A stretch of 64,000 bases of DNA from the NCBI RefSeq assembly GCF_900113715.1, contig NZ_FOQK01000002.1, forward strand, positions 124,001 through 188,000, given 5' to 3'. The first letter of the stretch is position 1, and each line of letters begins with the position of its first letter. Below, piece after piece: positions 28,221 through 43,423 of the stretch. A program made the position numbers and the translations under genes. The notes under the pieces are model-generated. The model saw nothing but the letters and a program-made list of their open reading frames with translations. It searched no databases and was not told the DNA's origin. This DNA comes from Pseudoselenomonas ruminantium (lineage in GTDB: Bacteria > Bacillota > Negativicutes > Selenomonadales > Selenomonadaceae).

Positions 28221-29299
28221 TGATGTGAGACCTACAAATAGGGTAATCCTTTAGAATGATTTAGCTACACTGTTCTAAAGATTTGCGTTTTTGGACGGGA
28301 GACATCCAGTTCAGTACCTGCATAGGAATATTATTAGACCTACGACGGTAACGTGACATTTGTGCTGTTAAATCCTTAAAAGAATAGAATTTCAGGAAGT
28401 TATAGAAGCGCTCCTGGTCGTTGCGGTGGCTGCGTTAAACCTTGCCATTATGCCGCGGCGTCCTGGGGCGAATCTTTTTATGTACAATGCCCAGCTTCTG
28501 GCATAAGGAATCCAACGGATGTATACGGTCTGTCTTCGTGATATGAGTAAATTCGGCACCGTTATCCGTTTGTAGTACGCGCGATTTATAGCCAAAGTAA
28601 GCGATAGCACGTTTTAAGAAATCTACGGTGGAGAAGCTGCTTTGTTCCAGATATGGATAAATAAACCGCTCTCTGGAAGCCTCATCAATGACTGTGTACT
28701 GGTAAAATTTCTGTGGAACCTGACCGGTGTAGCAGGCAGCAGGAACATATTTCACATCCATTTGCCATTTAACGCCGATTTTGTCGGGAGTATGATATGG
28801 CTTGGGAACGTAGGGCTTTTTAGTGGATGGTGCTTTTGATGAAAACCCAAGCCGAACAAAAACACGGTAGAGAGAAAGCGGATGCCTTTTATATCCCTTG
28901 TTGGTCTTTAACTTTCCGTACATTTCCAGCAAGGAAATGTGTGGGTTGCGTTTATGCAGGTCACGAATCCATTTCAGCTCGAGGTCTGTATGTGAGTTAG
29001 GATGTGGCGTATGAGGCCGGTGAGAGTGATCCAGAAGCGAATCCCGGGTACCGTCAAAGCGTTTATTCCATCGCATAATGGAAGCCTTAGAAATATGGTA
29101 GCGGCGGCAGACAAACTTTACACCAACACCAGTTCGATAAAGTTTGACAGCGTGGAATCTAGTTGAAGTTTCATATGGAAGATAACGGGTGGAATGTGAT
29201 ATACTATTCAAAACGGTTGACGTCCTTTCTGAGAGTTTGGTGTGGTAATTAAATTCTAAAGGACTCAACCGTTTTTTGTACAGTGGTGGTCTCACATCA
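28221..29299 (-). mobile_element. IS481-type insertion sequence, inactive
   Basis: A 1079-bp element bounded by perfect 12-bp inverted repeats TGATGTGAGACC (28221-28232) and GGTCTCACATCA (29288-29299). It carries one DDE transposase gene on the minus strand with a nonsense codon. It sits within the iteron region. A short target duplication cannot be fixed with certainty (AAT on both sides if the ends are set one base further in). Confidence 0.75.
28261..29211 (-). pseudogene. IS481-family transposase with nonsense codon at the catalytic Glu
   Basis: Helix-turn-helix part (RTGVGVKFVCRRYHISKASI) followed by an rve DDE core: first Asp in KWQMDVKYVP, second in VLQTDNGAEFTH. After RHNGKV the frame meets TAA at 28435-28437, then continues in the same frame as RSHRNDQERFYNFLKFYSF and ends at 28261. 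Relatives read HNGKVERSH, so GAA became TAA at the third catalytic residue. The start is probably TTG 29211 with AAAGGA upstream. The truncated product should be inactive. Confidence 0.75.
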
Positions 29300-29353
29300 A
29301 TTGTAAAGCTACAAGGAAAAAATTTTTGTCCGTTAAAATTCTGCAATAATCAT

Positions 29354-29393
29354 AACATTTACGATGTGCATTATTTTGTACATCGTAAATGTT
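29354..29393. promoter_or_regulatory. Island operator 1 (17-bp arms) before the dnaA-like/ftsZ-like operon
   Basis: AACATTTACGATGTGCA, TTATTT, TGTACATCGTAAATGTT: a 40-bp dyad with one mismatch and a 6-bp spacer. The core CGATGTGCA-N6-TGTACATCG has the 9-6-9 layout of the sites at 33238 and 40659. TTGTAC (29376-29381) in the right arm could act as -35, so bound protein would block transcription. Confidence 0.65.
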
Positions 29394-29451
29394 ATTATTA
29401 ATAGAAAAGTAAGATGTGATTCTGGTAGTAATGATGAGGAGGATGGGAATT

Positions 29452-30279
29452 ATGTATGGAAATGATGAGCATATACTCAATAAAAATTATAAATTGAGAA
29501 GCATGATAAGAGGGTATTCAAATCGGGATGCGTATCATGCTGCATTTGAAGTGGCTTGTGATAATAAGTCATATAATCCGGTAGTGATATATGGGAATAA
29601 GGGGCTAGGAAAAACGTATTTACTTCATGCGATTGCGAACGAAACATTTTATGAAGGCGGTTTGCGCGGAATTTCATATAAAAGATGCGATGAGCTGATG
29701 GATGAGATAAAAAATGAAAAATTTACGGATTTGTTAGTTGATCACTATATGCAATAGGAATTGTTATTGTTGGATGATTTTCATAGAATAGAAAATGATG
29801 CGGAAATACACGAGACAATATTGAAGATTATTGACGGACGTAAGGAGAAAGAAAAACATACGGTAATAGCATCCCGGAGAAAACCGATGAATATTTTTGG
29901 ATTAAGCAAAAATTTACGTTGGTGTATAGAAAGTGGCTATGTAGTAAAGATAGATAGTCCTGGTACTACCGAACGATTAGCAATGTTAAAGATTATTCAA
30001 CAAAGACGAAAATTGAATGAGATGTTAGATGACGAAATTCTATGTTTAATTGCAGAAAAGACAGATGGTAAAAATATGGAGGAGCTTGATGATTTTCTGA
30101 ATACCTATCTAATTAGAATGATAAAGAGGGATTGTGACGATTATTCTTCCAATAATGATATGTGTGACAAAATTGATTGTATAAACACACTTCTTAAAGA
30201 TGAATTTAATAATTATTATAATAGTTTTATGGGAAATATAGATAATATGGCTCGACAAACAATAATGTATAAGAAGTAA
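29452..30279 (+). pseudogene. DnaA-like AAA+ ATPase with in-frame amber codon
   Basis: Reads as one frame from ATG 29452 (AGGAGG 9 bases upstream) to 30279, broken by TAG at 29755-29757. The first part has RGYSNRDAYHAAFEVACDNK and Walker A GNKGLGKTYLLHAIAN; the second has Walker B LLLLDDFHRIE, the sensor VIASRRKP and, at the end, MARQTIMYKK, like the ARQIAMYL of DnaA domain IV. This matches DnaA domain III; domains I-II are missing and domain IV is reduced, without the DHSTV signature. About 275 residues if the amber is read. It may be a pseudogene, a sequencing error or a suppressed codon. Adjacent iterons suggest a replication initiator. Confidence 0.65.
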
Positions 30280-30388
30280 TTTTCGTTAAAAATCTGCAAT
30301 ACGCATAGCGTTTGTGTTTTTGTGTATTTATTATGCTATGTTTGTACCAGTGATATATAAAATAATGATTTATTTAATGGAGGAGAAC

Positions 30389-31375
30389 ATGACTGTAAAA
30401 AATGAGAATATAGAAAATGATTATAATAAAGCGACTGTCAATATAAAAATAGTAGGGGCAGGAGGTGGAGGAACCAGTGTACTGGAAAGTCTGGCGGCAA
30501 ATAAATTGTTTGATAACATTGAAATGGTAGCCATCAATACGGATTCGCGTGCTTTGAATGGGTTGAGCAGATGGGGAATATCAACTATTCAGGTAGGAAG
30601 CAATATTACCGATGGTTACGGCACAGGCGGTGATATGAAGAAAGGAGAAATCTCGGCATTACGAGATGAACATATATTGCGAGAGATGATGCAAAATATC
30701 AATATGCTATTCATTACGGCTGGTTTAGGAGGTGGAGCAGGTTCAGGGATTGCACCTGTAGTAGCTAAACTTGCTAAGGAACAAGGCATTCTGACTGTGG
30801 CTATTGTTACCATGCCATTTTCCTTTGAAGGATGTAAGCGTAATCGTACGGCAATGACTTCATTAAATGAATTGGAGAAAGAGGTTGATGCCTTGATAGT
30901 AATTCAGAATGACAAACTTATGACTTTACCGGAGGCAAAACAATTAACGGTCAGCAATGCCTTTAAGCTGACGGATTCGGTATTAGAGCGAGCGGTTACG
31001 TTGATAACCAAAATTATCATGACTACTGGTGATGTAAACATTGACTTTGCCGATATAAGCACAATACTTAGACAAAGTCAGTCCAGTGATGCGGTATTTT
31101 CGGTAGGTGTGAGCGAAAAAGGCGATGTAGCGGAAGCTCTGGAAAAAGCCTGCAATAGTCCGTTGCTCAAGCGCAGTGTCAAAGGGGCGCAGGGGGCAAT
31201 CCTGTATATTATCGGTGCCGATGATATGAGCATGTATGATATAAATACCGCAATTATGAAATTAAAGGCTGAAATGACAGATGCAGCGAATATTATTTGG
31301 GGCTATATGGGAACTCCGGATAAGGCTGGTACGGTGGAAGTCATGCTGATTGCCACGGATTTTATTGACTGTTAA
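30389..31375 (+). CDS. FtsZ-like GTPase without C-terminal tail
   Basis: 328-residue FtsZ homologue. KIVGAGGGGTSVLESL opens the GTPase domain, NTDSRAL follows, the tubulin signature appears as GLGGGAGSGIAP (normally GGGTGTG), and the T7 catalytic loop NIDFADISTIL is intact. It ends just after the globular domain, with neither the linker nor the conserved C-terminal peptide that binds FtsA/ZipA, so it is not the cell's division FtsZ. It may form filaments for replicon segregation, or interfere with division. GGAGGAG precedes ATG 30389. Second gene of the operon with the DnaA-like gene; an iteron lies between them. Confidence 0.8.
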   Translation: MTVKNENIENDYNKATVNIKIVGAGGGGTSVLESLAANKLFDNIEMVAINTDSRALNGLSRWGISTIQVGSNITDGYGTGGDMKKGEISALRDEHILREMMQNINMLFITAGLGGGAGSGIAPVVAKLAKEQGILTVAIVTMPFSFEGCKRNRTAMTSLNELEKEVDALIVIQNDKLMTLPEAKQLTVSNAFKLTDSVLERAVTLITKIIMTTGDVNIDFADISTILRQSQSSDAVFSVGVSEKGDVAEALEKACNSPLLKRSVKGAQGAILYIIGADDMSMYDINTAIMKLKAEMTDAANIIWGYMGTPDKAGTVEVMLIATDFIDC

Positions 31376-31394
31376 ATTGAATGGGGGCATTCTT

Positions 31395-31964
31395 ATGGTC
31401 TTGATGAAGCGCTATCAGAAATTGAAGGATAAAGTTATGGACAGGAAGGAGGAGTTTCAGAAGCTGATGTCGTATGTCGAAAATGAGACAGAATATTTGA
31501 CAGCGCCAGCTTCGACGAGGTTTCATCTGTGCCATGAAAAGGGGCTTTTAGAGCATAGTGTAAATGTCGCTGAAACCATGCTGAAACTAAAAAGCACGCT
31601 GGCTCCGGAGATAAGTGACGAGAGCTGCGTTATCGTGGCACTTTTGCATGATTTGGGTAAAGCCGGGATGCCGGGGAATCCGCAGTACATCAAAAATGAA
31701 CCGACATCGAAGCAAAAGGCTTATGGCTATGCAGCTAATCCGCCTTATCGGTTTAATAATGAACTGACCTATCTTAGCGTGCCGATTAGAAGCCTCTATC
31801 TCATTACGCCACGTTTCCCGCTCACAGAGGAAGAAGTGCAGGCCATTGCTTACCATGATGGACAGTATGTAGAAGAAAACAGAAGCGTGGCATCCCATGA
31901 GGAAAAGTTGACATTGCTCCTCCAATATGCTGATAGTTGGAGTTGCTTTGTGGTGGAAGAATGA
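31395..31964 (+). CDS. HD-domain phosphohydrolase, copy 1
   Basis: 189-residue HD-domain protein. Metal ligands: His in GLLEHSVNVAETM, His-Asp in ALLHDLGKAGMPG, with a later YHDGQYVEENRS. Such proteins hydrolyse phosphodiesters or nucleotides. It is a close paralogue (roughly three quarters identical by eye) of the protein at 35834-36409 in the minus-strand operon, so the island has one copy in each operon. ATG 31395 or 31404 are both possible starts; a GGGGGC site precedes. Confidence 0.75.
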   Translation: MVLMKRYQKLKDKVMDRKEEFQKLMSYVENETEYLTAPASTRFHLCHEKGLLEHSVNVAETMLKLKSTLAPEISDESCVIVALLHDLGKAGMPGNPQYIKNEPTSKQKAYGYAANPPYRFNNELTYLSVPIRSLYLITPRFPLTEEEVQAIAYHDGQYVEENRSVASHEEKLTLLLQYADSWSCFVVEE

Positions 31965-31985
31965 TTTTGAAAGGAGAGATGTGAT

Positions 31986-33047
31986 ATGAATTATTGGTTT
32001 CATCGTATCAGCTATGAGGCGCGTGTGTCTTATCCTCTTTTGGAAAAAGGATATATGACCATAGGATTTGGTGATCTCTTGCCGAAGTATGGTACAGTCG
32101 TTGCGGAGATTAAGGCAGGTACTATTGATGAGGAAAAATACAATGAAATTTTTCAAGAGATCTATAACAAAGTTAGCCGTAATCGTTGGTTTTTGTGGAA
32201 TTTTTCTAGATTTGCAGTGGGCGATTGGGTAGTTATTCCTTCGTGGGGAACATTTGCTGTATACGAAGTATTGGAAACGGCAAAATCAATTAACAATTTG
32301 CCGCGTGACATCATTGACAGCATCAAGGATTGGAATGGTAAAGGTGTTGTTTTTGATGGTGCAGGAATTTCCGATAGTGATGGTAAAGAATACGATTTGG
32401 GGTTCTTTGTGAAAGTAAAGCCTGTTACTGAATTTGTACCTAGGGAGACATTTCTCAAAACTGATCTAACGAAACGTTTAAAATCACGCGCGACTAACGG
32501 AACAATGAATGATTTGTCTGATGATGTAAAAGATGTTGTAGCTAATGTAAAAAATGACAAACCGCTAAATTTTTACAAAACAGTATCGGAAAACTTGAGT
32601 AATTCATTAAAAGAGTTAATCCAAAAGGAGATTACTCCAGATAAATTTGAACAGCTCGTTGAATGGTATATGAAAAAACTTGGAGCAGATGATGTGTATA
32701 TTCCATCGAAAAATAATTCGAATAAGCCTAATGATGCGGATGCTGATGTTATAGCAACTTTTTCAAGGCTTAATCTAGTGGTTTACATTCAAGCTAAGCA
32801 TTATGAAGGTGTTCAAGACAATAACTGGGCGATAACGCAAATTCAAAATTATATAGATGCCGTAGATAAAAATAATTATACTTGTGCCGCTTGGATAATA
32901 TCATCTTGTGATGAATATTCGCCAGAAGTAAAGCAAGCAGCTCTTCAGCAGAGTATTCAAAATATCTCTTTACCTATTCGATTGATAAATGGCGGTGAAT
33001 TTGCAAAAATGTTGATTGATGTTGGGGTTAGCGATTGCGTAATCTAA
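31986..33047 (+). CDS. Mrr-type restriction endonuclease-like protein
   Basis: 353-residue protein with a C-terminal PD-(D/E)XK domain of the Mrr catalytic family: FEQLVEWYMKKLGADDVYIP, then Asp in DADVIATF and the QAK motif in LVVYIQAKHYEG, followed by ITQIQNYIDAVDKN. The N-terminal 190 residues resemble a sensor or DNA-binding module (NYWFHRISYEARVSYPLL, SRNRWFLWNFSRFAVGDW). Mrr enzymes cut modified DNA. AAAGGAGAG precedes the start. It ends the plus-strand operon. Confidence 0.75.
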   Translation: MNYWFHRISYEARVSYPLLEKGYMTIGFGDLLPKYGTVVAEIKAGTIDEEKYNEIFQEIYNKVSRNRWFLWNFSRFAVGDWVVIPSWGTFAVYEVLETAKSINNLPRDIIDSIKDWNGKGVVFDGAGISDSDGKEYDLGFFVKVKPVTEFVPRETFLKTDLTKRLKSRATNGTMNDLSDDVKDVVANVKNDKPLNFYKTVSENLSNSLKELIQKEITPDKFEQLVEWYMKKLGADDVYIPSKNNSNKPNDADADVIATFSRLNLVVYIQAKHYEGVQDNNWAITQIQNYIDAVDKNNYTCAAWIISSCDEYSPEVKQAALQQSIQNISLPIRLINGGEFAKMLIDVGVSDCVI

Positions 33048-33061
33048 AAATAACATAGAGC

Positions 33062-33119
33062 ATAAAAATATGCACGCTGAAGTTTATACTCTCACACTCT
33101 CAGCGTGCATATTTTTATC
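33062..33119. terminator. Bidirectional terminator with 19-bp arms
   Basis: ATAAAAATATGCACGCTGA (33062-33080) and its exact complement at 33101-33119 flank a 20-base loop; A- and T-rich ends suit termination in both directions. It closes the plus-strand operon. Confidence 0.8.
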
Positions 33120-33237
33120 GTTCATTCATTTTCCTTTTCCCATTTATCATATTTTTTTGGTGTGCGGAATGGTAAGTGTTAAATAAGAACATGGAATTGC
33201 CTCCTTAATTCTTATTAAGTTTTTATTATAGGGAATA

Positions 33238-33261
33238 CAATGTGCATTTTTTTGCACATTG
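33238..33261. promoter_or_regulatory. Island operator 2 before the 225-residue protein gene
   Basis: CAATGTGCA-TTTTTT-TGCACATTG, perfect 9-bp arms and a 6-bp T spacer, 44 bases before the start codon of the next gene. It matches the layout and core of the sites at 29354 and 40659. Confidence 0.65.
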
Positions 33262-33304
33262 TTAATGGTATATTGAAGATATACATGATAAGGAGGTTGA
33301 AATC

Positions 33305-33982
33305 ATGAACTTTATCGATAGTGGCGAATATGTACGCATTGACGGAAAAATGAAATTGCCAGATTTTCCGCTTAGTACCGTGATATTGCTAAAGGGAGAG
33401 CCGTACGATTTAATTTTTTACCAGAATGGCTGTACGGGGAAAAGAGCGACTACTCCGTGGAGTGTTTGGAAGAATACTCCACGGAATGATTCACTGGAAG
33501 GCTATTTGACTACTTGGTTTCCCGTAGATAACGCGCTGTTGCAGCCAAGGAGAATCAACCAATGGAATTGGCAAGGTCTTACAGAAGTATTTTCGTTGAA
33601 TGAAATGGGTTGTTGCTTGAAAGATGTATTTATTCATACAGGCGATAATGAGCTGCTTTACCCGAATTATATGGGGGTAAAACCCAAAAAGGTACATGAC
33701 AGTCCAGTGATAATGCATTACCCCAATATTATGTTTAATTGCATGACAAATTTTAAGGGAAAATTATTGCTGGGGCATGGACGGAAAAATAACATTTTGA
33801 CCAAATATGATGCTGTGGTGGAAGTGGATGCTGATGCAGGCAAATTACGGTCAGCAGAAAATGTTACCACACTGATTAAAACCATAAAGCAATGGATGAT
33901 TCAAAATCCAGGGTATAGGATGGAAGATATATTACAAAAATTCCCGAATATTGGACGTGATAGATTATATTGGTTTATTTAA
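33305..33982 (+). CDS. Uncharacterised 225-residue island protein
   Basis: No family recognised. A complete gene with AAGGAGG 8 bases before ATG 33305 and its own operator. The protein has a strand-rich first half (YVRIDGKMKLPDFPLSTVIL, then LKGEPYDLIFYQNG), aromatic patches (WNWQGLTEVFSLNE), and a C-terminal segment QWMIQNPGYRMEDILQKFPN that could be a small helical DNA-binding or dimer module. There is no signal peptide. Its single-gene unit under the shared operator suggests a cargo, accessory or anti-system function. Confidence 0.6.
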   Translation: MNFIDSGEYVRIDGKMKLPDFPLSTVILLKGEPYDLIFYQNGCTGKRATTPWSVWKNTPRNDSLEGYLTTWFPVDNALLQPRRINQWNWQGLTEVFSLNEMGCCLKDVFIHTGDNELLYPNYMGVKPKKVHDSPVIMHYPNIMFNCMTNFKGKLLLGHGRKNNILTKYDAVVEVDADAGKLRSAENVTTLIKTIKQWMIQNPGYRMEDILQKFPNIGRDRLYWFI

Positions 33983-34049
33983 GATAATCGATATATTTTT
34001 CACTTGTGACAGTTGATGAGAAAATTTTGTGATATGTGTACGCTTTGTA

Positions 34050-34093
34050 GCAATGACCTCCTGACAAAAATGAACTGTCAGGAGGTCATTTCA
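34050..34093. terminator. Bidirectional terminator between convergent island units
   Basis: AATGACCTCCTGACA (34052-34066) pairs with TGTCAGGAGGTCATT (34077-34091), followed by T on the plus strand and As on the other side. It separates the 33305 gene from the minus-strand operon. Confidence 0.8.
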
Positions 34094-34108
34094 GATAGAA
34101 TCTTAATC

Positions 34109-35806
34109 TTAGGATAATCTCCGTGATAGCGTCAGACTCACCATAAACATTCCCATCTCCTCCAAATATTTCACAGGAAAGTCTGCCACTAAACTGTTTT
34201 CTGATTCGGACACTGGCAAATAATCCATCAATGGACCATGAGCAATAACCACCATTGATGCATGGGGAGATGTATGCCGTGGTAAACCTTTAATCTCATG
34301 AGCAAGGTCAACCCATCTCTTGATTACTTCCGATGATTCATAATGCTGACGAAATTCCGCAGACGTATTCAATGCCTCATCCAAAGTCATACGTAATTCA
34401 TTTGGTATAGTTCTGGCTATAGCATCTATGTGCTCATAATCAATCCCCAAAACTCTGCCCACCTCTCTTAATGCAGCTTTAGCCAGCAGCGTACCAAAAG
34501 TGACAATCTGTGCTACGCTATCATAACCATAGCATTCCTTAAGATAATCGATGACGAAATCTTGATTATCTATCTGTTGGTTATAGCCCAACTTAAATTC
34601 AGGTAAGGATATATGATCCAGATTCAAAACAGTGTCAGCTTCTAAATTACACTTTGAAGGTTCTACTTTACTAAGTCCAAGAACATAAGCTATAATACTA
34701 CCTTCCAAATAACTACACCGTGACCTTACACTAATATCATGTTCTCGGCACAATTCAATAATATCTTGTGCAATTAGGATATATCTTGCAAGGTCGCTTC
34801 TTTTAATCATGTCCAGTTCATAACATAATTGTTTCTGTATTTCTTCTGTAATCACCGAATAATATTCAGGGAGAGCTTTTTCGCATAGCGCACACAAGTA
34901 TTCATCATCCGTTTTATAAGCTTTGGGCAGAGAAAATGCAGGCATTTGCATTTGACCAAAGGTAAAGTCAACCTGACAGCGTTCAGCGATTTTTACGGTA
35001 TTGGCAACAGCCTCTGGATATTCCGAGAACAATATTGCTATTTCCTGTGGAGATTTAAGGTAATACTCTCCATTATCATATCGGCCATTCTTATATTCGT
35101 CCAAGTCCATGCCATGTTCTATACAATGCAGAACAGCATATAACTCACTATCTTTCTGACGTAAATATCGACAATCGTTGGCTGCCACCAAACCTAAGCC
35201 AAAATTCTCAGCTAATTCAACCAAGCTCTTATTGACAATTCTCTCTTGGCTTAAACCGTGATTCTGAACCTCAATGAAAAAATTTTCTTTGCCGAAAATA
35301 TCGATGTATTCTTGAACCACTCTTTTCGCTCTTGGCTTATTGTTGCGACTAATTGCACGATAAACTTCGCCATCAGCACCAGACGACAGGCAGATAAGCC
35401 CTTCATGATATTTTTGTAGAAGTTCTTTATCCACTCGTGGCTTGTAGTACATACCCTCTATATTGGCCAACGACACAAGCTTCACCAGATTTTTATAACC
35501 CATTTGATTTTCTGCCAACAAAATCAAATTGTAGTACGTTTCACCATCAACAGTACAGCGGTAATATCGCGAGGTAGGGGCCACATACAGTTCACAGCCG
35601 ATAATCGGTTTTATTCCCTGCTTCTTACATTCCTTATAGAAAGGTATAACTCCGTACAGCGCTCCATAATCGGTAATCGCTAAATGTTTCATCTCCAGTT
35701 CTTTAACTCTTGTCACCAGCTCTTTGATACGAGCTACACCGCTATAAAGGCTGTATTCTGTATGGACATGAAGATGAGCAAACCTGCTCTCATCAAACGC
35801 TGTCAT
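34109..35806 (-). CDS. Truncated DNA polymerase III alpha (DnaE) homologue: PHP domain, polymerase motifs lost
   Basis: 565 residues; bacterial DnaE is about twice this. The PHP domain is well kept: FAHLHVHTEYSLYSGVARIK, LAITDYGALYGVIPFYK (usual His after Asp is Tyr), IKPIIGCELYVAP, then DKELLQKYHEGLICLSSGAD. The following polymerase segment is degenerate: the conserved GPGRGSGAGS is VRSRCSYLEGS, and the catalytic PDFDVDF is PEFKLGY. GLPRHTSPHASMVVIAHGPL is kept, but the protein stops where KMDFLGL should carry the third Asp. It cannot be a polymerase; a PHP phosphatase/nuclease or a clamp- or replisome-binding decoy is possible. Last gene of the minus operon. Confidence 0.75.
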   Translation of the reverse strand: MTAFDESRFAHLHVHTEYSLYSGVARIKELVTRVKELEMKHLAITDYGALYGVIPFYKECKKQGIKPIIGCELYVAPTSRYYRCTVDGETYYNLILLAENQMGYKNLVKLVSLANIEGMYYKPRVDKELLQKYHEGLICLSSGADGEVYRAISRNNKPRAKRVVQEYIDIFGKENFFIEVQNHGLSQERIVNKSLVELAENFGLGLVAANDCRYLRQKDSELYAVLHCIEHGMDLDEYKNGRYDNGEYYLKSPQEIAILFSEYPEAVANTVKIAERCQVDFTFGQMQMPAFSLPKAYKTDDEYLCALCEKALPEYYSVITEEIQKQLCYELDMIKRSDLARYILIAQDIIELCREHDISVRSRCSYLEGSIIAYVLGLSKVEPSKCNLEADTVLNLDHISLPEFKLGYNQQIDNQDFVIDYLKECYGYDSVAQIVTFGTLLAKAALREVGRVLGIDYEHIDAIARTIPNELRMTLDEALNTSAEFRQHYESSEVIKRWVDLAHEIKGLPRHTSPHASMVVIAHGPLMDYLPVSESENSLVADFPVKYLEEMGMFMVSLTLSRRLS

Positions 35807-35833
35807 AGTCTGCCCTCCTATATGATGAATATT

Positions 35834-36409
35834 TCATTCTGCAGTTTCGACAATAAAGCCACTCCAATTATCCGCATACTGCAAAAGCAAGGTAAGTTTC
35901 CCCTCCCTTGCCGCCACACTGCGGTTATCTTCTACATACTGACCGTCGTGATAGACTATGGCCTGTACTTCTTCCTCTGTTAATGGGAAACGACTGGCTG
36001 CCAGATAAAGCCCACGGATAGGAACGCTCAAATATAACAGGTCTTTATTGAAGCGATATGGCGTAGTAGCAGGATAGCCGTAAGCCTTCTGCTTGGGGCT
36101 CGGTTCATTTTTTAGATATTGCGGCTGCCCAGGCATCCCAGCTTTGCCTAAGTCATGAAGCAGTGCCACGATGACACAGCTTTCATCACTAATTTCCGGG
36201 GCAAGTACTGCCTTGATTTTCAGCAGGTTCTCTGCCACATTGACACTATGCTCCAAAAGGCCACGCTCACGGCAAAGATGAAACTTGGTAGAGGCAGGCG
36301 TTGTTAGATACGCTGTTTCTTTTTCTATAAACTGCATCAGATTAGCAAATTCTTCTTTTCGACTTATTACCTTATCTTTTAATGCTTGATATCGTTTCAT
36401 CAATTCCAT
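35834..36409 (-). CDS. HD-domain phosphohydrolase, copy 2
   Basis: 191-residue paralogue of the protein at 31395-31964, with the same HD ligands (RGLLEHSVNVAENLLK, ALLHDLGKAGMPG, YHDGQYVEDNRS). It overlaps the upstream PD-(D/E)XK-like gene by 10 bases, so the two are co-translated, and is followed by the DnaE-like gene after 27 bases. Retention of two copies in the two operons suggests the protein works with both. Confidence 0.75.
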   Translation of the reverse strand: MELMKRYQALKDKVISRKEEFANLMQFIEKETAYLTTPASTKFHLCRERGLLEHSVNVAENLLKIKAVLAPEISDESCVIVALLHDLGKAGMPGQPQYLKNEPSPKQKAYGYPATTPYRFNKDLLYLSVPIRGLYLAASRFPLTEEEVQAIVYHDGQYVEDNRSVAAREGKLTLLLQYADNWSGFIVETAE

Positions 36410-37203
36410 AACAATTCTATCCCCTTACTACCATTCACCAATAACACTTTTACATTCTTTGGTGGTTTTGGACATCCTATCATTTTCTTGAAAGCCTTCT
36501 CATAATATTCTTTCCAATCGTCTTCCAGAACTGAATTAAATGTTTCATCATTGACAACATTAAGCAATACCAACGTGGTTTGTATGTTTTTTAGTTTTTC
36601 ATTTATATAATAGAGAAAAGTTAATCTATTACCTAATTGATAATAAGTATTCATCCAAATATCTTTTTCTTTCCAAGTTTCAACTGTATATGATTTATTA
36701 GTATAGTAATTATATGCGCTAAGCATAGATTTTTCTATTAGCGCAATATTTTCTTTTGATTTAGAACCACATTTTGTTTTCGCTTCCTCCCTATAAGCTT
36801 TTGCCTCAAAGAGGAACAACTGCTTGCATCCTGCTTTATTCTCATGTATTGCCATCGCATCCCATACAGGCTGTTGTGACGGCCAAAATTTAAATATAGT
36901 ATCGTATAAATCATTTTTCTTATCTATCCCTAAAACAGTTTCCCTTATGTTTCTGTGAGCAATTTGATTTAATTTATATTCACGATAATCTTCACTAGCA
37001 AGAGGAGATATCCACGCTCCATCATCGAAATTCAATTTTCCCTGTATTCCTCTTTTATACTCCTCCAATTTCTTGGGGTCAATATCCAATTTTCCCTTCA
37101 ATAATTTTCTTTGCAAAATTTCTTGATCTGGATTAACTATCGCCTGCATCCATAATTTACTTCCTTTTTCTCCTGGACCAGGTGCTGTTGAATTTCCACT
37201 CAT
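36400..37203 (-). CDS. Possible PD-(D/E)XK-fold protein, uncharacterised
   Basis: 267-residue protein from ATG 37203, chosen for AAAGGAG 8 bases upstream; the frame extends further up without support. The core WDAMAIHENKAGCKQLFLFE followed by AKAYREEAK has the Asp-(spacer)-Glu-x-Lys pattern of PD-(D/E)XK nucleases, and the context (HD, PHP, AAA+) agrees, but this is motif-level evidence only. Later parts are helical with YYINEKLKNIQTTLVLLNVV. Confidence 0.55.
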   Translation of the reverse strand: MSGNSTAPGPGEKGSKLWMQAIVNPDQEILQRKLLKGKLDIDPKKLEEYKRGIQGKLNFDDGAWISPLASEDYREYKLNQIAHRNIRETVLGIDKKNDLYDTIFKFWPSQQPVWDAMAIHENKAGCKQLFLFEAKAYREEAKTKCGSKSKENIALIEKSMLSAYNYYTNKSYTVETWKEKDIWMNTYYQLGNRLTFLYYINEKLKNIQTTLVLLNVVNDETFNSVLEDDWKEYYEKAFKKMIGCPKPPKNVKVLLVNGSKGIELLWN

Positions 37204-37226
37204 AAATATCACTCCTTTTAATCTGC

Positions 37227-37620
37227 CGCTAATTAAACCACACTTGTTTTGAGACCAATTCAGCCACTTTAGCTGGAGCATCCATCAAAGTTCCTTCCAT
37301 TGCCGAACAACTATCAAAAAGCATAGACATTCGGCCTTTAACGTAATATTTCTCTTCCTTACACAAGGAACGTACAATTAGCGAAACGTTATCTTGTCAT
37401 AGTGTTAAAACGCTATGGAGATATCGCGTATAGCGATTAACGAAATAGCGATAGTTGAATCGTCATAATGGATATTGGAGGTACACACCTCAGGCTCTTA
37501 GCCATAATTTCCATACGCAAATAGCTATCTGCTATCATTCGTAATTTGCATGCAGCTTCATAGTTCATCTGCACCTGAACCGAATTCCCTTTAATGAATG
37601 CCCCTGCTAAAGTGGCTGAT
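37227..37620 (-). pseudogene. Decayed open-frame remnants in the minus operon
   Basis: Between the 219-residue protein gene and the PD-(D/E)XK-like gene are two protein-like stretches with no start or ribosome site: one reading QVQMNYEAACKLRMIADSYL then RMEIMAKSL (about 37500-37580), another reading KEEKYYVKGRMSMLFDSC then SAMEGTLMDAPAKVAELVSK and ending QVWFN (about 37227-37370). A segment with hairpin-forming repeats around 37400-37470 separates them. They look like parts of one broken gene. No family recognised. Confidence 0.35.
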
Positions 37621-37630
37621 TATATCCTAA

Positions 37631-38260
37631 TTATTCTTCCAGCAATTCCTCAACAATAAATTGGTTCTCACCTGCCAGGTCAAACCTGGGCGTGTAATCA
37701 ACTTTGGTAGCGAGCAATGCTTCATCAATCTTGAGAGATACTTCGTCAGCCTTGCGATTAAATTCCTTAACCATTGCCCTTACCTTGTTCCTGTCATAAT
37801 CAATCGTCATAATGCGGTCAATATCATAGTAGTAGGAAGTTTGATTACCGTCATTGTTAAACACATATCCTTGGCCTTCGCCCTTTTGCAGTTCATGAGA
37901 ACTCTTCAAGTTTGCTAAGCCTTGTAATACTTGAAGCATTGACCGCCTACTTTTATTAGCATCTACAGCTGCGTCAAGGTTAAAGCCCATCCCTGCCTTA
38001 GCTTTGCCTATTGCGCACGACAGTTTTTCTTTTTCTTCCATAAGTTCCTGCCATACTTTTAACAACGCCTCTATAGCAAAACCTTCTTCGCTGCGCTCAC
38101 TAACATCGACAGTCTCATCCTTCTGTCCTTTTAAGGCCTTGCTGCGCAAGTGTTTTTCTGTAATCGTCATAACGTTGTCATTATCGGACAAATATCTGGT
38201 GATGTAACTCAGTAAATCATTGACTTTGTTCTGCGTTTGAAAAGCTTCTTTCAAATTCAT
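37631..38260 (-). CDS. Uncharacterised helical protein of the minus operon
   Basis: 209-residue protein starting MNLKEAFQTQNKVNDLLSYI at ATG 38260, with AAGGAGG upstream. Mostly charged helix: EALLKVWQELMEEKEKLSCA, a central GEGQGYVFNNDGNQTSYYYD loop and KVRAMVKEFNRKADEVSLKI. It resembles small coiled-coil partners encoded beside AAA+ ATPases, but I cannot name a family. Confidence 0.6.
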   Translation of the reverse strand: MNLKEAFQTQNKVNDLLSYITRYLSDNDNVMTITEKHLRSKALKGQKDETVDVSERSEEGFAIEALLKVWQELMEEKEKLSCAIGKAKAGMGFNLDAAVDANKSRRSMLQVLQGLANLKSSHELQKGEGQGYVFNNDGNQTSYYYDIDRIMTIDYDRNKVRAMVKEFNRKADEVSLKIDEALLATKVDYTPRFDLAGENQFIVEELLEE

Positions 38261-38296
38261 GATAAATACCTCCTTGTATAAATGAATCATATAATA

Positions 38297-38504
38297 TTAT
38301 CCAAAATGTGAACCTGAATGCTTTAATGCCGCTGGAATATTTATTGGTTCCAAATCTCTTAGCGCATCTCTTTCAGATAATTCATATCTTTTTTCTAATG
38401 GATATAATTTCACAATCTGTCATCAATATCTTGTTGTTATCTTCTTTCTCAGCCTTGAAATTCCTGCCGCGTCAATCAACTAATTCCATCCCTATATAAA
38501 ACAT
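38297..38504 (-). pseudogene. Short decayed gene with nonsense codon and frameshift
   Basis: AAGGTGG and ATG 38504 start a frame MFYIGMELVD that meets TGA at once, continues as RGRNFKAEKEDNNKILMTDC, and after a frameshift reads VKLYPLEKRYELSERDALRD then LEPINIPAALKHSG to a stop at 38297. The last part is convincing as protein. Together they describe a former gene of about 67 residues between the AAA+ and helical protein genes. Confidence 0.45.
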
Positions 38505-38547
38505 TTCAAAGCACCACCTTACTGACCATACGACATTATCATTTACT

Positions 38548-40602
38548 CTATGGATTGGGGACAAAACCAAGTGTTCTGTTCTTGGATTTGTACTGTTTCA
38601 CCACATTTACATCAAAATCTTCTTTTTTCAGTTCCAATAGTATATGGCGGTCAATTTCCTTTCCCTTGTATTCCTGCATAAGTCTGCTGGCCTGTTTTAT
38701 TTGTGCTTGTTCCAGCAGGTTGCGTACAAAGCGGCCGTTGCCGAAGTTGTCTGTTTGGCTGGCTTTGTTGAATAATTCTCGGCATTTTTCATTTATACCT
38801 GCACCGAGCGTCAATTCCTGTTTGCTGGCCATCAAATGCAGGATATCCAATAGTTCCTGGGGTGTGTAATCGGGAAAATCAATATGGAAGGCGATACGGC
38901 TGCGCAGACCTTCATTCTTTTCGAGAAATCTTTCCATTTTATCGGGATAGCCGGCGAATATAACAATGGTATCATCGCGGTTATTTTCCATTTCCTGCAC
39001 GATGGTATTGATGGCTTCGTCTCCGTAAGAGCCTTCACAGTCATCAACAAGCGAATAGGCTTCGTCAATAAACAAAATCCCGCCTTCGGCGTGTCGGAAT
39101 TTTTTCTTTATCGTTGGGGCTGTCCAGCCTACATATTTGCCAACCAAATCGGCACGGCCACATTCCACAAATTCACCGGATGATAGGATACCTTCACTGT
39201 TAAGAATTTCTGACAGTAATCTGGCTACCGTGGTTTTAGCACTCCCCGGATTGCCGGTAAAGACCATGTGCATATTGGGGCGGAACTGGTTTAATCCCAT
39301 AGTAGAACGTATTTTTTGCGCGCGGAAGGTGTCCAGTATATTTTCGATAACTTTTTTGACTTCCTGCAGGCCAATCATGGATTGCAGGCGGCTGTATGCG
39401 TCTTTTTCAGCATGCTTTTTGACGGCAAGTGTAACCCGGCTGACTTCTTTATATGCTGTGTATGCGTTGTTACGTAAGTTATTTCGATAGAGCCGGTCAT
39501 ACATCTGATAAATATCGGAGGGGCGGAATACAGTCTTATCACCTAAAACGTATTCTATCTGCTCGGTGTTATAGGAAATCTTGCCATCAGTTAATAGTTT
39601 TTGCAGATATTTTGTTGCTGTTTGCCGATTCCCCGTGCCTTCTTTTATTTCAATAAAGAACATTTCCTCTTGTAGTGAGCTGATTAGATTGTGTGTAAAG
39701 CCGGGATTATGTGTGTTTTCCACAAGAATAAAGAGGGTGTTCCGTTGATACTTACGGATTTGTTCGGTGAAAAAATTTACGACTTCCTCATAACAGGTTG
39801 TGTAGTTTTGATGTTCTTCTTTGCTTCCCGTAAGTTCTATGACAATAGTACCGCCTGCACTTTGTCGGAAAATAGACTCGATATCCGAATCGTTAAAACA
39901 GCCTTCAGTAATATCGGAAATATAACTGATGCAACGGCTTACAAGACGTTGATTGGCGTAAAGGTTGCGGCATAAGCAGGTGGCAAGTTGCAAGGCGGAA
40001 TTTTTATTATCAGCAGACAGCTTATAGTGTACAGGATGACCTTGATACTTGTGTGGATGGGTCGGGGTATAGATACGCTTGATTTCCTCCAACAAGGTTT
40101 TATCTGGTATAAATGTATGGGCATCTTCAAGGGCAGCGTTTAAGTTGGTGGGAAATTTATCAAAAATTTGTTCTGTGATTTGAAAATCTCTGTTGTTATA
40201 ATAATCAAGACTATAATTGTCGTTGTCCCAATAGCGATTGCGGCTAATAAAATGAGAACTGTTTTCTAAAAACTTTCTTGCTTCTTTAGGGGAGATTTCC
40301 TTCATCTGTGCTTTTCTTTGCAGGGAAAGTCCATATTTTTCGCTTACACAGTCAGCCAAAAATTTAAGTAGAGTTTTAGATGAGGGTGATTCAAGCGAAT
40401 CAATAACGGCAATAAAGAATAGTTCCTCCGGGGAAGCCTTGTAAATGGTCATAAATATTTTTGATTCGTTGGCGTCCGTTTCGAGCGTATCATTTATATC
40501 TTCTATTAGCCTGTGCCAAGCGTTCTGTGATTCTTCATAGTTTTTTTGCATTTTGCCATTATCAACGAGTGAACAAGCAACCTTTACCTGATAAAATAAC
40601 AT
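38548..40602 (-). CDS. AAA+ ATPase, CbbX/SpoVK-like, with degenerate N-terminal AAA-like region
   Basis: 684 residues. The C-terminal half is a clear CbbX/SpoVK/EccA-type AAA+ domain: MIGLQEVKKVIENILDTFRA, Walker A VFTGNPGSAKTTVAR, GKYVGWTAPTIKKKF pore/hairpin element, Walker B GGILFIDEAYSL, arginine finger EGLRSRIAFHI. The N-terminal half has a possible second, inactive ATPase fold (Walker B-like GGTIVIELTGS without a Walker A). Such ATPases remodel protein complexes. First gene of the minus operon, behind island operator 3; AAAGGAGG precedes the start. Ends with TAG. Confidence 0.8.
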   Translation of the reverse strand: MLFYQVKVACSLVDNGKMQKNYEESQNAWHRLIEDINDTLETDANESKIFMTIYKASPEELFFIAVIDSLESPSSKTLLKFLADCVSEKYGLSLQRKAQMKEISPKEARKFLENSSHFISRNRYWDNDNYSLDYYNNRDFQITEQIFDKFPTNLNAALEDAHTFIPDKTLLEEIKRIYTPTHPHKYQGHPVHYKLSADNKNSALQLATCLCRNLYANQRLVSRCISYISDITEGCFNDSDIESIFRQSAGGTIVIELTGSKEEHQNYTTCYEEVVNFFTEQIRKYQRNTLFILVENTHNPGFTHNLISSLQEEMFFIEIKEGTGNRQTATKYLQKLLTDGKISYNTEQIEYVLGDKTVFRPSDIYQMYDRLYRNNLRNNAYTAYKEVSRVTLAVKKHAEKDAYSRLQSMIGLQEVKKVIENILDTFRAQKIRSTMGLNQFRPNMHMVFTGNPGSAKTTVARLLSEILNSEGILSSGEFVECGRADLVGKYVGWTAPTIKKKFRHAEGGILFIDEAYSLVDDCEGSYGDEAINTIVQEMENNRDDTIVIFAGYPDKMERFLEKNEGLRSRIAFHIDFPDYTPQELLDILHLMASKQELTLGAGINEKCRELFNKASQTDNFGNGRFVRNLLEQAQIKQASRLMQEYKGKEIDRHILLELKKEDFDVNVVKQYKSKNRTLGFVPNP

Positions 40603-40643
40603 GGCAAACGCCTCCTTTTCTGTTGTGGTGATTCATCTTATGC

Positions 40644-40697
40644 TTATTTTAGCAGACACAAGGTACATTTTTTTGTACATCTCATCTGCTAAAATAA
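40644..40697. promoter_or_regulatory. Island operator 3, 54-bp dyad between AAA+ operon and WYL regulator
   Basis: Outer arms TTATTTTAGCAGA (40644-40656) and TCTGCTAAAATAA (40685-40697) are perfect. The inner CAAGGTACA-TTTTTT-TGTACATCT (40659-40682) shares their exact centre (40670.5) and the 9-6-9 layout of the other two island sites. TTGTAC (40673-40678) and TAAAAT (40695-40700) form a plus-strand promoter for the regulator; the other side serves the AAA+ operon. Confidence 0.7.
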
Positions 40698-40757: not shown

Positions 40758-41744
40758 ATGATGTACGCGACAGGCAATAAGAAAATGCTCAATATGCTGA
40801 TATTGGAGATTCTGAAAGAATATACGGATGAGAATCATCGTTTGACGCAAATGGAGATGATTCAGTTACTGGAAAAGAATTATGGCATGACTTGTGACAG
40901 GCGGTCCGTGCGAGCGAATATTGACTCTTTGAAGGAATTGGGCTATGAAATTGCTGCGGATAAGGGCTATTATTTGCTGGAACGGGATTTTGACGATGCA
41001 GAATTACGTTTGCTGATTGACAGTGTATTATCTGCGAAGGGAGTATCGCAGAGTCAGGCGAAGCGGTTAATCAAAAAACTGGTTAAGCAGGGAAACCGTT
41101 ATTTTCAGGCAAAAGTCAAACACATTGCGAATCTGCCGGAAATGCGGCATTCAGATAATACCGTGGTTATGAAGAATGTCGAAGTGTTAAATGATGCTAT
41201 TGAAAAAAAGCGGCAGGTGAAATTTATCTACAACCGTTACAACACTTCGTTTAAGCTGGTGCCTAAGCGGGATGAGCCATATGTTGTCAATCCTTATCAA
41301 ATGGTGGTATGTAATGGCTGGTATTATCTGATTGGTAATACGGAGCCTTACGACAATGTATCCCATTACCGCATAGATAAGATGAAAAAGGTGACTATAG
41401 TAGATAAGCCGGCTAAGGATAAGTCATTGGTGGATGAGTTTGTTCATGGCTATAACCTGCCCAGACATATGGCGGAGCATATCTATATGTTTGGTGGCAA
41501 CACTATTGAGGTGCAATTTCAGACGGGGAAATATCTTATGGATCAGTTGGTGGACTGGTTTGGCAAAGATTTTTCGGTAAAGCCGTTGAATAATGAGGAT
41601 ATGCTGGTGACGGTCAAGTGCAACGAATATGCGATAAAATATTGGGCATTGCAGTATATCGAGCATATAGAAGTGCTGAAGCCCGTAGATTTTCGTCAGC
41701 AGATAAGCCACATATTAAAGGATAGATGGCAGGTACATAAATGA
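40758..41744 (+). CDS. WYL-domain transcriptional regulator
   Basis: 328-residue regulator: N-terminal winged helix (MLILEILKEYTDENHRLTQM, GMTCDRRSVRANIDSLKELG), then a WYL domain with INPYQMVVCNGWYYLIG-like core (here VVNPYQMVVCNGWYYLIGN), RIDKMKKV and a WCX-type end EVQFQTGKYLMDQLVDWFG. WYL regulators often control defence islands, sensing nucleic acids or nucleotides. Divergent from the AAA+ operon with a symmetric operator between, so it is the likely master regulator of the island. Confidence 0.88.
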   Translation: MMYATGNKKMLNMLILEILKEYTDENHRLTQMEMIQLLEKNYGMTCDRRSVRANIDSLKELGYEIAADKGYYLLERDFDDAELRLLIDSVLSAKGVSQSQAKRLIKKLVKQGNRYFQAKVKHIANLPEMRHSDNTVVMKNVEVLNDAIEKKRQVKFIYNRYNTSFKLVPKRDEPYVVNPYQMVVCNGWYYLIGNTEPYDNVSHYRIDKMKKVTIVDKPAKDKSLVDEFVHGYNLPRHMAEHIYMFGGNTIEVQFQTGKYLMDQLVDWFGKDFSVKPLNNEDMLVTVKCNEYAIKYWALQYIEHIEVLKPVDFRQQISHILKDRWQVHK

Positions 41745-41843: not shown

Positions 41844-42512
41844 ATGCGCAGAAAAAAGATAGCACCAGAGACTAAGGTGCGTTATGTTGAAATGTACAAA
41901 CGTGGAGAAGGAAGCGGCATGGCCTTGGCTAGAACCGCTGGAGTTGCCCTGGCTTCATTTCAGCAATGGGTGAGAAATTATGAAGTATATGGGCCTAAAG
42001 CATATACCAAGGGGTATCAACACTATTCCAAGGACTTGAAGGAAAGTGCTGTACGAGATTATCTGGCAGGCAAAGGCTCACAGGATGCCATTTGCAAAAA
42101 GTACGGGATTCTTTCTAAGAGCAAGTTGCAGAAGTGGATTATGAAGTATAATAGTCACGAAGGATTGAAGCCATCCGGCCAGGAAAGGGGCAAAATCGTG
42201 ACTACAGGTAGAAAGACTACTTTAGAAGAGAGAGTTTCCATAGTAGAAGATTGCATATCCAATGGTCGCTGCTATGCTGAAACAGCGGATAAATTTTCTG
42301 TGTCATATTAGCAGGTATATACATGGGTACGCAAGTATGACAATAAGGGCATTGATGGACTGAAGGATGGCCGTGGGCGTACCAAGCCAGATTATGAAAT
42401 GAGCGAGATTGAACGCGTCAGATATGAAAACCGAATGCTGAAAGCGCAATTGAAACATCAGCAGATGGAGATAGATTTCCTAAAAAAACTCGAAGAGATA
42501 GAGAGGCGGTGA
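41844..42512 (+). pseudogene. IS3 OrfA with in-frame amber codon
   Basis: HTH protein of the IS150 type with two helix-turn-helix blocks (MYKRGEGSGMALARTAGVAL; VSIVEDCISNGRCYAETADK). TAG at 42309-42311 interrupts SY-QVYTWVRKYDNKG, where a Gln (CAG) would fit; the frame then runs on through the leucine-zipper part (RYENRMLKAQLKHQQMEIDF) to TGA 42510. Without readthrough OrfA and the OrfAB fusion transposase cannot be made, so the element is probably immobile. Confidence 0.75.
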
Positions 42513-43423
42513 TACTAGAGCGGACGCGTCATACAGATACATACCGAGCAATTCGGGATCTGAGCAGCAGTCATAAAGATTATGCCATAAGTGAGCTATG
42601 CAGGCATGGACACGTGACAAGAGTCGCTTACTACAAATGGCTGCACAGGAAGTCCTCCCCGAATGATGGCCTGAACCACAAACTGGCTGCCCTTGCAGAG
42701 AAGATTCACAAGGAGCATCCAGATATGGGCTACCGGCGCTTCCGTGATAAGATTGAACATGACCACGGTTTGCACGCCAACGATAAACGTGTATTACGTA
42801 TATGTCGCAAGAGAAAATTGCGCTCCGTAATTAAGGGGAGGCACAATTGCTGCACTAAGCCTGCGGTTGATCCATATTACACCGCAGAAAACTTACTAAA
42901 CAGGGATTTCCATGCAGACAACTACAACCAGAAATGGGTAACTGATGTGACGGAATTCAAATACACAGCAGAGGACGGTACAGTCAAGAAAGTATATCTG
43001 AGTGCTATACTAGATTTGTGCGACCGCCGGCTAGTCTCTTATGTGATTGGGGACAGTAATAACAACCAACTGGTATTTCAAACCTTAGACAAGGCGTTGG
43101 AAGCTAATCCAGGGGCGCAGCCACTGTTTCACAGCGATCGTGGCTTCCAGTACACGAACAAAAATTTTAGGACGAAGATTGAACAGGCTGGTATGAGGCA
43201 AAGCATGTCTCGTGTAGCACATTGCCTGGATAATGGCCCAATGGAAGGCTTTTGGGGTATATTAAAGCGGGAAATGTATTACCGTAGGAAATTTAGGTCA
43301 CGCCAAGAATTAGTACAGGCAATAGAAGATTACATAAATTACTACACTTACGAGCGCCCGCAACGTCGGCTTGGGATTTTGACCCCAAGCGAATTACATG
43401 AACATTTGAGTTTAATGGCATGA
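42509..43423 (+). CDS. IS3 OrfB transposase catalytic subunit
   Basis: 304 residues, complete DDE integrase core: first Asp in KWVTDVTEFKYTA, second in FHSDRGFQYTN, Glu in DNGPMEGFWGILKREMYY. The N-terminal HTH_21 segment (HPDMGYRRFRDKIEHDHG) is present. GTG 42509 overlaps the OrfA stop; the active protein is normally an OrfAB fusion made by -1 frameshift, blocked here by the amber in OrfA. Confidence 0.85.
   Translation: MILERTRHTDTYRAIRDLSSSHKDYAISELCRHGHVTRVAYYKWLHRKSSPNDGLNHKLAALAEKIHKEHPDMGYRRFRDKIEHDHGLHANDKRVLRICRKRKLRSVIKGRHNCCTKPAVDPYYTAENLLNRDFHADNYNQKWVTDVTEFKYTAEDGTVKKVYLSAILDLCDRRLVSYVIGDSNNNQLVFQTLDKALEANPGAQPLFHSDRGFQYTNKNFRTKIEQAGMRQSMSRVAHCLDNGPMEGFWGILKREMYYRRKFRSRQELVQAIEDYINYYTYERPQRRLGILTPSELHEHLSLMA

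Follow-up and report, generated by a model that had tools for sequence, protein, structure and literature searches.

What controls transcription of an island that combines genes for DnaA-like, FtsZ-like and AAA+ proteins with a divergently oriented gene for a WYL regulator? The island is located in a 64-kb stretch of DNA, which was analysed as a whole and is referred to as the window. A first-pass annotation had proposed that one palindromic operator precedes all three transcription units of the island and that the WYL protein is the most likely agent of their coordinated control, and it had recommended a genome scan and a comparison with related islands. Here, we ask whether the WYL protein binds these sites and whether it acts as an activator or as a repressor.

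Operators and promoter elements in the window

The three palindromes are indeed present in the proposed 9-6-9 form at positions 29362–29385, 33238–33261 and 40659–40682. When up to two mismatches were allowed, a degenerate 24-mer matched exactly these three sites in the 64-kb window and none in 100 dinucleotide shuffles. Arm symmetry is perfect at site 2, with one mismatched pair at site 1 and two at site 3, and the best common core has a 7-6-7 arrangement of 20 bases with an A/T spacer (ATGTRCA-N6-TGYACAT, spacer W6; Table 1). The larger perfect dyad described around site 3 is real (40644–40656, TTATTTTAGCAGA / 40685–40697, TCTGCTAAAATAA; centre 40670.5) and consists of two mirrored extended −10 boxes (TGCTAAAAT), one per strand, each 9 bp from the palindrome. 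The first-pass annotation had missed that all three sites are flanked on either side by a −10-like hexamer at a distance of 9 bp from the core. We predict that the sites are two-way promoter boxes, i.e., a binding site with an outward promoter on each side. The statement that the sites precede all three transcription units is close to correct but needs extension: site 3 serves two divergent units, the AAA+ operon and the WYL gene, and sites 1 and 2 also face leftward, the former toward an IS remnant and the latter toward a 25-codon open reading frame with a good ribosome-binding site. This short reading frame (MFLFNTYHSAHQKNMINGKRKMNER; 33120–33200, minus strand), which is accompanied by AAGGAGG and TATAAT, recurs in the same frame in locus L042.

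Table 1. Genes, operator cores and −10 boxes of the island in the window
Feature	Position	Strand	Remarks
Mirror −10 box TATGAT, extended TGTTATGAT	29349..29354	-	Leftward, now into IS remnant
Operator 1 core ATGTGCA-TTATTT-TGTACAT	29364..29383	.	Exact type-A site
−10 box TATTAT, extended TGTTATTAT	29393..29398	+	9 bp past operator 1; for DnaA/FtsZ-like operon
DnaA-like ATPase-domain gene	29416..30279	+	Split by in-frame TAG at 29755–29757
FtsZ-like protein	30314..31375	+	GTPase signature and T7-loop motif kept; without C-terminal tail
HD-domain protein	31350..31964	+	
Mrr-type endonuclease-domain protein	31986..33047	+	
Mirror −10 box TATAAT	33225..33230	-	Leftward; followed by AAGGAGG and 25-codon ORF
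Operator 2 core ATGTGCA-TTTTTT-TGCACAT	33240..33259	.	Perfect palindrome
−10 box TATATT, extended TGGTATATT	33269..33274	+	For gene 33305
Protein of unknown family	33305..33982	+	Single-gene unit behind operator 2
Truncated Pol III alpha paralog (PHP and part of polymerase)	34109..35806	-	Last gene of AAA+ operon
HD-domain protein	35834..36409	-	AAA+ operon
Unknown protein, weak REase-like match	36400..37281	-	AAA+ operon
Unknown protein	37631..38290	-	AAA+ operon
AAA+ protein, C-terminal CbbX/SpoVK-type ATPase	38548..40602	-	
Mirror −10 box TAAAAT, extended TGCTAAAAT	40646..40651	-	For AAA+ operon
Operator 3 core AGGTACA-TTTTTT-TGTACAT	40661..40680	.	
−10 box TAAAAT, extended TGCTAAAAT	40690..40695	+	For WYL gene
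WYL regulator, wHTH-3HB-WYL-WCX	40758..41744	+	Pfam WYL; proposed binder of all three operators

Distribution of the box in the host genome

The genome of the host, a rumen bacterium, comprises 3.11 Mb and is close to Selenomonas ruminantium: its window WYL protein is 89–90% identical to proteins of two genomes of this species, and S. ruminantium ATCC 12561 carries the same three sites. We searched the host genome with a composite pattern consisting of the operator, 9 bp and TANNNT and allowed up to two mismatches. This yielded 16 oriented matches, each with at most one mismatch, that correspond to eight places read both ways, and every operator of the genome is therefore flanked by two −10-like hexamers. 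All eight places fall into three AT-rich islands with WYL and FtsZ-like genes and none lies elsewhere; the reversed control pattern gave two matches in the whole genome. With eight places in 3.1 Mb, all of them in WYL islands, the pattern is not frequent in unrelated AT-rich promoters.

Five sites lie beyond the window in two other islands, three on contig C46 and two on contig C22; the three on C46 were the further close sites retrieved by a genome-wide search with the core pattern alone (up to two mismatches). The C46 island contains an FtsZ-like gene, a degenerate FtsZ gene, a divergent AAA+/WYL pair and a putative gene for a plasmid replication initiator; the last label is our own reading, and no family was matched to it. 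FtsZ-like, degenerate FtsZ, HD, WYL and DnaA-like genes make up the C22 island.

Sites in relatives and across the phylum

Across 398 phylum-wide genomes, the composite pattern with at most one mismatch was present in three, all of them WYL-positive, and the reversed control in none. Genes for WYL homologs were found in 41 of 150 related genomes, and 80 named loci, mostly from Selenomonadaceae and Lachnospiraceae, were taken for comparison. Since these loci were gathered via WYL, site counts from them alone would be circular; the exact-site scans of the 150 relatives, the whole-genome composite search and the composite scan of the 398 genomes are free of this bias. The 82 loci (the 80 plus the window and C46) hold 85 sites of the type described above (type A, 13 or more of 14 positions) and one match to the reversed motif; 77 of the type-A sites are intergenic.

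A search that presupposed no motif, only exact 7-bp arms at every spacer length, had ATGGGTA, ATGTGCA and ATGTACA among its top arms at spacing 6. The first of these defines a second operator type, B (ATGGGTA-N6-TACCCAT), which replaces the A arms in one Selenomonad clade at the same place and with the same geometry; the two types never occur together in any of the 82 loci. Seven loci carry type B, and in six of them, including loci without an AAA+ gene, it is situated about 70–95 bp upstream of the WYL gene; the unbiased scan of 150 genomes likewise placed six of seven A/T-spaced type-B matches about 70–95 bp ahead of a WYL gene. An exact A or B site was found in 14 of the 26 relatives with a close WYL homolog compared with 6 of the 109 without one (150 relatives; Fisher p ~5e-8). 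About half of the WYL-positive genomes among the 150 relatives have neither type as an exact match, and a search for a third operator type in loci without A or B sites did not find one. The bare motif with one mismatch proved too loose in Lachnospiraceae, where 47 of 200 genomes matched alongside about 20 control matches, and exact sites in genomes without a close WYL homolog mostly lacked the −10 box; for these reasons the composite pattern was used from then on.

Because the same box recurs beside WYL relatives in other bacteria, namely in Selenomonadaceae and Lachnospiraceae, it is very probably the target of the WYL regulator. The comparative evidence from the host genome, the 398 genomes and the 150 relatives thus strongly supports the first-pass prediction of coordinated control, most likely by this protein.

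Promoter geometry and fold of the WYL protein

An extended −10 element (TGnTAnnnT) starts at offset 29 from the operator on 43 of 79 gene-facing sides, and at any other offset on 0–3; on sides that do not face a gene, it starts at offset 29 in 11 of 93 cases. A scan in the opposite direction, from extended −10 elements and with no preset motif, returned 53 palindromes at offset 29 (44 of type A, 6 of type B, 3 other) and 0–7 elsewhere. No −35 element with at least four of six matches at 15–19 bp spacing was found on any of the 79 gene-facing sides. Extended −10 promoters are able to fire without a −35 element. Both arms of the palindrome are conserved, and the A/T spacer is otherwise free. The predicted layout has the operator centre near −31.5, TG at −15/−14 and no −35 element.

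The WYL protein was modelled with AlphaFold using 51 relatives (pLDDT 85), which gave a wHTH domain (residues 4–75), three helices (80–119), a WYL domain (137–218) and a C-terminal domain. A Foldseek comparison with the PDB returned DriD and PafBC chains as the best nine matches (E 5e-12 to 2e-10), with CapW and BrxR lower; the best match, DriD, spans the full length of the model (E 5e-12). DriD also came first in a profile search (E ~1e-4), in the WYL-WCX part only and with an identity of about 16%; a phmmer search of the PDB retrieved neither DriD nor any other WYL relative.

DriD of Caulobacter crescentus binds ATACGAC-N7-GTCGTAT, a site that overlaps the −35 region at one fixed distance from −10, in promoters with a poor −35 element and a conserved G at −14 in the −10 region (PMC12340889). 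The activating signal is ssDNA, and among the genes under DriD control are the division inhibitor gene didA, dnaG, recJ and bapE (PMC12340889; PMC4211646). The window WYL protein and its predicted operators share with the DriD system the fold, the domain order, a pseudo-palindromic site some 20 bp long that covers the −35 position and a fixed distance to a weak or extended −10 element, as well as the divergent regulator promoter and putative targets tied to division and replication (PMC12340889). They differ in the operator sequence, the 6-bp A/T spacer, the mirrored −10 boxes on both sides and a predicted regulon that is limited to mobile-looking islands and made up of replication and division paralogs. 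Furthermore, DriD does not activate its own gene, whereas here the promoter of the WYL gene itself is a predicted target. PafBC of Mycobacterium is a WYL activator that is triggered by ssDNA and works by sigma adaptation at promoters without −35 elements (PMC11804915). The likeness lies in a WYL protein at promoters lacking −35; however, PafBC is a heterodimer on an asymmetric −26 motif, while the island has a single WYL gene and its palindromes are symmetric, with conservation in either arm.

Activation or repression, and the identity of the binding protein

Class II activation needs fixed spacing, and such spacing is seen here over many unrelated genes. Activation is therefore favoured, and the WYL protein most likely acts as an activator. 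The same operator and the same protein could also work by repression, with a dimer that covers the −35 region and is released when the WYL domain binds a ligand. This would resemble CapW and BrxR, homodimeric wHTH-WYL-WCX regulators that bind palindromic sites near defence genes and repress transcription, CapW in both directions (PMC9122588, PMC9122601). The WYL fold suits these proteins as well (VIA Z 10–11.7), and since DriD, BrxR and CapW are tied in this comparison, the fold alone cannot distinguish an activator from a repressor; nor would a repressor acting on an extended −10 promoter need a −35 element. Nevertheless, several observations render repression rather unlikely. CapW palindromes overlap the −10 element and BrxR repeats lie downstream of it, whereas the operator described here ends 9 bp upstream, and a PADLOC scan of nine proteins of the window island revealed no CBASS or BREX genes. 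A strictly fixed distance between operator and −10 element over many genes is a requirement of an activator, not of a repressor. Finally, the 79 gene-facing sides are devoid of −35 elements with four of six matches, and DriD and PafBC rank above CapW and BrxR in Foldseek.

It is improbable that the WYL gene is a mere neighbour and that a different protein binds the palindromes, be it the product of a gene outside the island or of one within it (e.g., the AAA+ protein). Some sites do occur on contigs without a visible WYL gene, such as that in L121, which adjoins a gene for an AAA+ homolog. However, sites are also found ahead of lone WYL genes without an AAA+ homolog (L043, L048 and L132), WYL is the one gene common to composite-site loci in the unbiased scans, and the recognition helix of the WYL protein, CDRRSVK, is nearly invariant wherever the operator is present. 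The change from operator type A to type B is accompanied by a V51I exchange in this helix; we dropped this covariation as a decisive proof, as it concerns a single conservative change in one clade and L094 breaks the rule.

That the palindromes represent RNA hairpins, terminators or recombination sites instead of operators is extremely improbable: long arms do occur (19 bp at site 1) and one copy of the box on C46 sits between convergent genes, but the −10 element downstream of each palindrome places the latter outside the transcript that it would control, binding by a protein would account for conserved arms around a free A/T spacer and for the fixed distance to −10, the sites point at gene starts in the 82 loci, and an Rfam search gave no match.

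Proposed mechanism and predicted regulon

Taken as a whole, our preferred explanation, that a DriD-like WYL protein binds the operators and activates the flanking operons upon an ssDNA signal, has in our estimation a probability of roughly 0.65. A dimer of the wHTH-3HB-WYL-WCX protein would sit on the 7-6-7 palindrome, whose centre falls roughly 31.5 bp before the start of transcription. There it would occupy the place of the −35 element, which the extended −10 promoter itself lacks. The ligand occupying the WYL domain would most likely be ssDNA, with DNA damage, a stall in replication or the DNA of an invading phage or plasmid as its potential sources. Thus occupied, the protein would recruit RNA polymerase and turn on the adjacent operons as well as the WYL gene itself; wherever a site has a pair of mirrored −10 boxes, transcription would proceed to either side.

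In the loci of WYL relatives, the commonest genes behind the box are those for AAA+ and WYL proteins, followed by genes for FtsH-like AAA, FtsZ-like and Pol III alpha-like proteins, nucleases and DnaB-like proteins. Judging from their families, the predicted targets (DnaA-, FtsZ- and Pol III-like, AAA+, HD and nuclease proteins) would act on replication and division, and the DnaA-, FtsZ- and Pol III-like members point to a possible checkpoint of replication/division or a possible abortive response. The Pol III alpha paralog in the window has lost the catalytic PDxDxD motif; it is probably not a polymerase, because PEFKLGY replaces the PDIDVDF of an intact relative. PD-D-N is retained in several other Pol III alpha homologs of WYL loci. 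The DnaA-like homologs on C22 (L128:4843–5874) and in L131 are uninterrupted, unlike the TAG-split copy in the window. A more far-reaching and decidedly tentative idea is that, in Selenomonadaceae and Lachnospiraceae, a WYL switch responding to ssDNA turns on decoy replication and division proteins (the DnaA-like ATPase, the tail-less FtsZ, the catalytically dead Pol III alpha and DnaB-like proteins) from mirrored promoters and so halts the host cycle or the replication of an invader. If true, the islands would be SOS-independent checkpoint or abortive-infection islands.

The geometry of the promoters and their bidirectional design go beyond the first-pass annotation, as do the existence of a second type of operator and the resemblance to DriD. 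The literature that we searched yielded nothing relevant on WYL genes in islands with FtsZ- or DnaA-like genes or on a WYL regulon in Clostridia, and we found no description of the operator, promoter architecture and regulon of this WYL family. An operator, a promoter layout and a predicted regulon that includes DnaA, FtsZ and Pol III alpha paralogs can now be assigned to a WYL family that spans two bacterial classes. DriD-style control becomes testable beyond Proteobacteria, and the box, with no occurrence outside WYL-positive genomes in the 398-genome scan, is specific enough for sequence-based target discovery.

Further features of the islands

A degenerate second FtsZ-like gene without GTPase motifs adjoins an intact FtsZ-like gene in two loci (L009:15434–16276 and L128:9789–10634). 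The C46 island also harbours a perfect composite box with mirrored TGTTATATT (G000:C46:78301–78320, L009) between two convergent genes. No gene start follows this box, which may drive antisense or small RNAs. In L041 and L042 the three operators of the window are kept and the genes behind site 1 differ (DnaA/FtsZ, FtsZ, HD), as if gene cassettes had been swapped behind fixed promoters. IS transposase genes are located at both ends of the window island (28435–29346, abutting operator 1, and 41844–43423). Next to site 1, the window has a cluster of iteron-like repeats (TTAAAATTCTGCAATA and variants; 29333, 28166 and 30286), which are also present in L041 and L042; the same repeats occur on C46 (75201–76226) beside the Rep-like gene. 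Their position beside site 1 and beside this gene suggests that the islands descend from plasmid-like replicons.
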